The position numbers and the translations under genes are program-made. A stretch of 46,911 nt of DNA. It comes from Candidatus Gastranaerophilales bacterium (lineage in GTDB: Bacteria; Cyanobacteriota; Vampirovibrionia; Gastranaerophilales; Gastranaerophilaceae). Under the pieces are notes generated by a model, which had not been told where the DNA came from, made no database searches, and saw only the letters and a program-made list of their open reading frames with translations. Positions 41,122 to 41,978 of this stretch are shown one piece after another (position 1 is the stretch's first letter; every line of letters starts with the position of its first letter). The DNA is taken from contig CALVAM010000017.1 of NCBI GenBank assembly GCA_944325545.1, positions 1 through 46,911 on the forward strand. The letters are read 5' to 3'.

Positions 41122-41476
41122 TCGATGAAATTTTAAATGCTTTAGTAATTTTGAATACAGAATAAATAAAAGCTCACATAATAAATATATAAGAATGTTT
41201 AAAAAGTGAAGCTATGAATATATTTTTATTTTGTTCATGAAAAACTAGGGAAATAATACAAAAAGGAGAGTGGTAATTACTAATCGTAAAGTTAATGTAA
41301 TTTTCGCTGAACCATATGCTACTATTGAAAAATTGGTAAACTTAGCAAAAATAGGAATATCAGAGTTTGGATATGAAAATTTTAAGCAAAAAATAATTTC
41401 TTCCTGTGATAAAAATAGTGCAAATACTAAAAAAGAGCCCGAAGGCTCTGATTTAAATTGTTCTGTTTGTTTTAAA
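41122..41476. other. Intergenic region downstream of ugd
   Basis: No gene is called. An open frame from about 41270 reads like protein (NVIFAEPYATIEKLVNLAK) behind AAAAGGAGAG, but it has no ATG at a proper distance (GTG lies too close to the ribosome site) and runs on into the repeats. It may be a remnant. The stretch ends with the minus-strand terminator at 41429-41449. Confidence 0.4.
41429..41449 (-). terminator. Strong rho-independent terminator (minus strand)
   Basis: On the minus strand AGAGCC-TTCG-GGCTCT closes a UUCG tetraloop and is followed by TTTTTT. It lies beyond the tandem repeats, and would end any transcript reading leftward from the tRNA-Ala gene. Confidence 0.85.
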
Positions 41477-41689
41477 TGGTGGAGGTTAGGAGATTGTCTT
41501 GACCTGTTCGCATTAAACGTGACTTCGGATTTTGCTTCAAGGAACTTCCGTTCTTTTTGCAAAAATCCTCCGCACTCTGCTCACAGGTCGCTCGAACTCT
41601 TAAAATGTGCTTTCGCACATTAGGAGTTCTCATCCGTACTTACCATCACAAAATAAAAAACCGAATAACAAACATCATTCGGTTTTTTA
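41477..41689. repeat. 213-bp tandem repeat, unit 1
   Basis: First of two head-to-tail units of exactly 213 bp. It starts with TGGTGGAGGTTAGGAGATT, identical to the 3' end of the tRNA-Ala gene as read on the plus strand, then diverges from the tRNA. Inside, paired arms are visible: GACCTGT/ACAGGTC enclosing GGATTTTGC/GCAAAAATCC, then GAACTC/GAGTTC enclosing AATGTGC-TTTC-GCACATT, then a terminator-type stem. Unit 2 differs at one base (A at 41674 versus G at 41887). Confidence 0.9.
41653..41688. terminator. Bidirectional terminator stem in unit 1
   Basis: AACCGAAT / ATTCGGTT (8 bp) with A-runs before and T-runs after, so it can work on either strand. Repeated identically (bar one loop base) in unit 2. 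Confidence 0.7.
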
Positions 41690-41902
41690 TGGTGGAGGTT
41701 AGGAGATTGTCTTGACCTGTTCGCATTAAACGTGACTTCGGATTTTGCTTCAAGGAACTTCCGTTCTTTTTGCAAAAATCCTCCGCACTCTGCTCACAGG
41801 TCGCTCGAACTCTTAAAATGTGCTTTCGCACATTAGGAGTTCTCATCCGTACTTACCATCACAAAATAAAAAACCGAATAACAAACGTCATTCGGTTTTT
41901 TA
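41690..41902. repeat. 213-bp tandem repeat, unit 2
   Basis: Second unit, directly joined to the first on its left and to the 3' end of the tRNA-Ala gene on its right. The 20-nt string that begins each unit therefore occurs three times at 213-bp spacing (41476, 41689 and 41902), the last being the true tRNA end. Such near-identity suggests a recent duplication. Confidence 0.9.
41866..41901. terminator. Bidirectional terminator stem in unit 2, just beyond tRNA-Ala
   Basis: The same AACCGAAT / ATTCGGTT stem with a T-run on both strands. On the minus strand it follows the CCA end of the tRNA immediately and is its natural terminator. Confidence 0.8.
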
Positions 41903-41978
41903 TGGTGGAGGTTAGGAGATTCGAACTCCTGACCCCCTGCGTGCAAAGCAGGTGCTCTACCAGCTGAGCTAAACCCCC
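41903..41978 (-). tRNA. tRNA-Ala (anticodon UGC)
   Basis: 76 nt with encoded CCA. The acceptor stem GGGGGTT / AACCTCC contains the G3-U70 pair that identifies alanine tRNAs. The D arm holds AGCTCAGCTGGTAGAGC. The anticodon stem CCTGC/GCAGG encloses the loop TTTGCAC, giving anticodon TGC. The T arm has GGAGTTCGAATCTCC. It reads leftward. Confidence 0.98.

Follow-up and report, generated by a model that had tools for sequence, protein, structure and literature searches.

Behind the tRNA-Ala gene of a Candidatus Gastranaerophilales contig stand two nearly identical units of 213 bp, which we read as copies of a tiny, non-coding integrative element that inserts at tRNA ends and has the architecture of the Escherichia coli RtT repeats. 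The whole stretch of DNA analysed, 46,911 nucleotides, is referred to as the window. Taken together with the mechanism that we infer for it, a folded site and a recombinase acting in trans, this reading is put forward tentatively, at a little under an even chance. The E. coli tyrT repeats have long been a single-locus oddity and now seem to be one case of a widespread, comparable family. Whether such repeats are RNA genes or DNA integration sites has become directly testable, also in a laboratory strain of E. coli, by way of empty sites, host-matched T-arm halves and covariation that is nearly free of wobble.

The tRNA-Ala locus and its two units

All features of the locus are read on the minus strand. 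The host gene, an intact tRNA-Ala with anticodon TGC, occupies 41903..41978 (ARAGORN; Rfam RF00005, 70.9 bits). The tail of this tRNA, from the T-loop through CCA (AATCTCCTAACCTCCACCA, 41903-41921, placed by ARAGORN and RF00005), is present twice more, at 41690-41708 and 41477-41495, with spacings of 213 and 213; the repeated tail comprises 19 nt of tRNA and one flanking base. Unit 1, proximal to the tRNA, starts right after the CCA of the gene and closes with its own copy of the tail (41690..41902), and unit 2, distal, covers 41477..41689. Both were delimited by repeat finding and both are matched by the covariance model described below (41705-41810 and 41492-41597, 119 bits each). TRF reports a single tandem array in the window, at 41469-41921, with period 213 and 98% matches, blastn aligns the units at 99.5% with one SNP, and a repeat search returns two 213-nt copies at 99%. 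These results bear out an initial annotation of the locus, which had described the tRNA-Ala 3′ end three times at 213-bp spacing and two near-identical units with a single SNP.

Read away from the tRNA, each unit begins with a terminator-like stem (41866..41903 in unit 1, 41653..41690 in unit 2), so that the terminator previously ascribed to each unit lies at its tRNA-proximal end. A GATGAGAACTCC motif follows (41836..41847 and 41623..41634), which in unit 1 is complementary to the copied T-arm half and whose GATGAGAA part is common to E. coli RtT, as judged from the sequence, the RtT consensus and the E. coli tyrT repeats. Next come a copy of the 5′ half of the host T-arm and T-loop (AGAGTTCGA in unit 1, 41805..41813, assigned from sequence and family statistics; 41592..41600 in unit 2) and the core hairpin, delimited by covariation and fold (GCGACCTGT...ACAGGTCAAGAC in unit 1, 41709..41804; 41496..41591 in unit 2). 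The terminal tail copy closes each unit (41690..41708 and 41477..41495). The minus-strand reading of a unit does therefore end in the tRNA tail, as had been claimed, and the arms named at that time are present in a strong fold (z of -5.2 as DNA and -5.8 as RNA, with none of 200 shuffles as good in either case). The description of the tRNA tail as the head of the units is correct as to the copy and is refined here, in that the match begins inside the T-loop and the T-arm 5′ half has been copied too, across a hairpin of ~96 nt.

Only mechanical open reading frames overlap the units, and 213 bp leaves no room for an integrase of their own. Promoter-like sites were not found within the window units, and Rfam searches of the window, at the gathering threshold and at E<=10, returned the tRNA and chance matches and nothing else.

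Insertion and empty sites

When the flanks of the Ala locus are joined, unbroken matches appear in several relatives, with G075 highest at 91% identity. Seven relatives checked by sequence carry an empty Ala site (L201, L205, L206 and L209-L212). In these, CCA is followed directly by the flank and terminator that, in the window, come after the last tail, that of unit 2; the native terminator stem lies at 41434..41449. The simpler reading is therefore that the 426 bp were inserted precisely, the other being their equally exact loss from many relatives. As each unit has its own terminator, unlike the native one in sequence, the units are not simply duplications of local DNA. A scar of repeated recombination, suggested earlier, would by itself leave the conserved core and the foreign terminator of each unit unexplained.

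Spread might also proceed with no dedicated recombinase, a selfish palindrome multiplying where replication slips, templates are switched or RecA recombines short stretches of tRNA homology. The units within one array are nearly identical, two Xer-type proteins appear to be the only tyrosine recombinases that every genome has, and rtT is given as a 175-bp VNTR in a Salmonella list (PMC2658671), all of which would suit such a process. The units at the occupied site nevertheless carry a foreign terminator, the exact T-loop junction and the co-adapted T-arm half recur at 19 anticodons, and a conserved core implies recognition by something. We regard enzyme-free spread as unlikely.

Family size and anatomy

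Diverged copies of the unit are numerous in relatives by BLAST, mostly 65-116 bp behind a tRNA where single or first units are concerned. A covariance model of the core, built from 42 cores, finds 21 copies in the genome of the window. Within the genus, 63 of 65 genomes have copies, as many as 31 apiece, and in a sample of 192 genomes of the order Gastranaerophilales 151 have them. Most of the genomes are metagenome assemblies in fragments, each species being represented by a single genome, and contig ends often fall inside arrays. In a phylum sample at E<=1e-8, all of the matches listed belong to the window's own taxonomic family; a search of the order at a looser threshold gave a few matches in three further families. 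Scanning GTDB contigs with a core pattern produced 92 stretches. Candidatus Gastranaerophilales or Cyanobacteria stands in the titles of many, and several have titles that appear to be wrong. Among public genomes that bear the element, those at L066, L075, L081, L096 and L046 are labelled Acinetobacter or Bacteroidales and look like mislabelled Gastranaerophilales bins. We found no literature on these elements in Gastranaerophilales.

The plan seen at the Ala locus is that of the family. Away from the tRNA the order is terminator, a GATGAGAAC motif with a small hairpin, the host T-arm 5′ half and a core hairpin of ~96 nt with ends GCGACCTGT...ACAGGTCAAGAC, after which come the remainder of the host T-loop, the T-arm 3′ strand and the acceptor 3′ strand. 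A GATGAGAA-type motif precedes the T-arm half in the window units and, within 75 nt, in 45 of 108 elements, where shuffles predict 2. One type of terminator loop recurs in units at Ala and Val tRNAs, and two adjoining pairs of the core switch between Watson-Crick and tandem G.A. In the genome of the window, arrays of 2-3 units stand behind tRNA-Lys(CTT), Asp, Arg and Thr; other tRNAs there have one unit or a broken one. The majority of elements stand alone, with a length of about 170-300 bp.

Matching to the host tRNA

An upstream tRNA on the same strand, ending within 500 bp, is present for 66 of the 95 elements with enough upstream sequence, and one on the opposite strand for none. The element tail agrees with its own tRNA at 12.6 of 14 positions as opposed to 6.6 of 14 for other tRNAs. 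The hosts of the family represent at least 19 anticodons, none of them Tyr; units beside other tRNAs in relatives, proposed at the outset as a check on the observation, thus do occur, and on the same strand. To the left of the core, agreement with the host stands at 86, 93 and 98% for T-arm positions 51-53. At L024, although the host arm differs, the element's own T-arm halves form pairs between themselves.

When each core is set beside its nearest counterpart in another genome, the two stand at the same type of tRNA in 44% of cases, compared with 6% expected, so that much of the inheritance is vertical or bound to the tRNA. Near-identical cores, up to 97-98%, are also found at different tRNAs. 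The pattern of nearest neighbours fits mostly tRNA-bound inheritance with occasional jumps.

Covariation of the core hairpin

Is the hairpin maintained as DNA or as RNA? Compensatory changes in the arms, which had been named as a test, are present: the core helices show 76 double-sided and 3 one-sided changes, with a covariation score of 0.235 as against 0.121 for shuffles. RNA selection would favour G.U over A.C on the transcribed strand. In 91 distinct cores wobble is nearly absent, with 22 G.T and 15 A.C cells, whilst the anticodon and T stems of tRNAs at the same loci have 63 G.T and 1 A.C. Because G.T is about as rare as A.C, unlike in those tRNA stems, the core hairpin looks to have been selected as DNA. 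The evidence for DNA rather than RNA folding selection is suggestive, the wobble count ignoring the shared ancestry of the sequences.

The pattern bears on a further explanation, that the unit is an RNA gene. Transcription, by read-through from the tRNA or from a promoter belonging to the unit, would be followed by processing to a small RNA of the RtT type, which would bear a 3′ tail like that of a tRNA and act in the physiology of tRNA or of the stringent response. E. coli RtT/rttR, with which the unit shares its architecture, is annotated as an sRNA, the RtT model aligns end-to-end with one unit in a search of the whole genome (E 0.0117), the fold is strong, and the core has tandem G.A as does RtT (PMC7657543). 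A strong terminator, however, separates the tRNA from the core in both window units, the units lack a promoter-like site, the helices have G.T about as seldom as A.C, unlike tRNA stems, and the distal tail and the empty sites are left unexplained. On balance an RNA gene seems somewhat unlikely. The small structured RNA with a tRNA-like tail that the initial annotation proposed keeps some plausibility from the RtT-type architecture, but the substitution pattern of the hairpin does not resemble selection on RNA.

Comparison with RtT and other systems

The Rfam RtT model (RF00391) has one match at E<=1 in the genome of the window, a full-length alignment to a member of the family (24.8 bits, E 0.0117). 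Its gathering cut-off of 45 bits was reached nowhere tested in the phylum, and none of 194 genomes of the phylum gave a match at E<=0.001. At E. coli tyrTV there are four RtT matches (133-137 bits), and nine other E. coli tRNA loci scanned had none. Since the curated cut-off was met nowhere tested in the phylum, we call the elements RtT-like and not members of RF00391.

The similarities are nonetheless considerable. The 178-bp repeats of E. coli tyrT-tyrV (rttR) are likewise tandem units behind a tRNA, each with the tail of that tRNA. Their plan of GGATGAGAAG, AGGTTCGA (the copied T-arm 5′ half), core and ATCCTTCCCCCACCACCA, with the junction in the T-loop, is that of the family, the GATGAGAA motif is common to RtT and the window units, and the tandem G.A reported in the stem of RtT (PMC7657543) occurs in the family core. 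Tested for membership of RtT, the elements possess the host tail end, the T-loop junction, the copied T-arm 5′ half and the GATGAGAA-type motif, and lack the location at tRNA-Tyr. The core sequence differs from that of RtT and scores below the Rfam cut-off, a terminator precedes each window unit, and, whereas RtT stands at tRNA-Tyr, the family occupies many tRNAs (tRNA-Ala in the window) with up to 31 copies per genome, in another phylum. Common descent of the family and RtT is likely, not proven. Listed beside the rtT VNTR in Salmonella is a 220-bp VNTR at tRNA-Gly (PMC2658671), which may be another RtT-like array.

Three other systems share parts of this plan. The attC cassettes of integrons and CALINs are direct repeats in tandem, in which two complementary boxes enclose an imperfect hairpin. 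The family resembles them in its tandem hairpin units, and its covariation suggests a folded-DNA site; it differs in attaching at a tRNA T-arm and in having a minimal unit that carries no cassette gene. By inspection there is no GTTRRRY / RYYYAAC core box, the junctions reading GTTCGAG and CAAGACAATC, and an identity with integron attC was rejected. A second comparison is with integrative elements that cross over in the T-loop, a sublocation of tRNA integrases reportedly described by Williams in 2002. As in elements of that kind, the unit supplies the 3′ part of the tRNA from the T-loop, direct repeats of the tail flank the insertion, and precise insertion regenerates the tRNA 3′ end. By contrast the unit, at about 200 bp, encodes neither an integrase nor any other gene and has a large conserved hairpin between the T-arm halves. 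The third comparison is with REP/REPIN palindromes, which are also dispersed, structured, non-coding repeats, whereas the family is fixed to tRNA ends with host tails and does not require a Y1 transposase. Movement of REPIN-like hairpins by a REP-associated (Y1) transposase would account for dispersed, structured palindromes in many copies. We think it most improbable, and have rejected a REPIN/RAYT system as a candidate, given that a Y1_Tnp match is absent from 27 of 63 genus genomes, including G005 with its 31 copies; the genome of the window itself has two such matches.

A possible mechanism

Among the three readings first suggested for the locus, a minimal att-site-like element at the tRNA 3′ end fits best, in view of own-tRNA tails at many tRNAs and the empty sites. 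We envisage that the core hairpin extrudes, from single strands or as a cruciform, so that the T-arm halves (GRGTTCGA ... ATC-tail) would meet and mimic a tRNA T-arm. A site-specific recombinase of the tyrosine type, provided in trans, could then exchange strands in the T-loop between a circle of the unit and the tRNA gene. The incoming unit would supply the tRNA with a new 3′ end and a new terminator; the tRNA would therefore survive, and units could pile up in tandem. Copy number in an existing array may also be altered by ordinary recombination or slippage between the tails.

A generic PF00589 search returned no dedicated tyrosine recombinase common to all genomes beyond two Xer-like proteins. 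Some unit-bearing genomes have just two PF00589 proteins, both of Xer-like length; one such is G028, 96% complete and with six copies of the element.

A broader proposal, possible though doubtful, is that minimal DNA cassettes form a class of integrative elements mobilised in trans, attaching at the T-arm of a tRNA and offering a folded hairpin as the site on their own side. The class would comprise the Gastranaerophilales elements and, by architecture, the E. coli tyrT repeats, so that RtT would be primarily mobile DNA and secondarily RNA. If the integrative reading is true, integrating elements of exceptionally small size attach at the T-arms of tRNAs, and defence islands may gather at hot spots marked by the arrays.

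Neighbourhood and unusual cores

Islands with Fic/RhuM, DUF1016-type, large NTPase and HigBA-like genes lie beside tails or cores at L051, L064, L079, L110 and L071, and several of their genes match PADLOC candidate defence models (SoFic, PDC-S73, PDC-S02 and PDC-S23). Could the units have been left over from larger islands or prophages that target tRNAs, or be the right ends of such elements, with the core as part of their attachment site? Some tails and cores do adjoin islands of defence or toxin type (L051, L064, L110, L079), and one element adjoins a prophage (L130). Against this, most elements stand alone at about 170-300 bp and the boundaries of the islands vary in position relative to the core, on which account the islands look like later guests. 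An origin as island remnants is improbable. Cassettes with cargo genes, suspected from open reading frames between tRNA and core, were discarded, as the junctions differ between loci, and the genes are treated as parts of nearby islands. An autonomous phage version was discarded too, the sole IMG/VR match being a prophage beside an ordinary unit.

At three loci (oriented positions L079 3960, L110 5340 and L016 1500) the islands end at the core in a common CATCTTGTTCTGTATGTTAAATTACA, the end of which resembles half a dif site.

A few cores are found in other settings. At L181 1059-1602 (G000:C8, minus strand) a diverged core immediately precedes the tmRNA gene; the sequence of the tmRNA 5′ end (GGGGATGTACTGGTTTTGACG) occurs on either side of this core, and that end may therefore be a target too. 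Three times in one species the core forms the tip of a long palindrome other than a tRNA tail, CCCTCGCCCCTT...AAGGGCGGGTGAG (L038 381-483, minus strand; L129 5664-5766 and 7504-7606). At L044, L055, L058, L062 and L118 a core with T-arm-like flanks (ACAGGTTCG..ACAACC) occupies one conserved non-tRNA locus in several species; the three of this group that were scanned had no Rfam match. A second type of core (GAATTTGT..ACAAATTC / GGATTTGC..GCAAATCC) stands beside the usual core or replaces it at L176 (G000:C4, a tRNA-Thr array) and L019, with the same junction. Lastly, a gene for a phage-type integrase is split across two contig ends (L133 and L135, the ends of G000:C28 and C14), so these contigs probably join inside a prophage.
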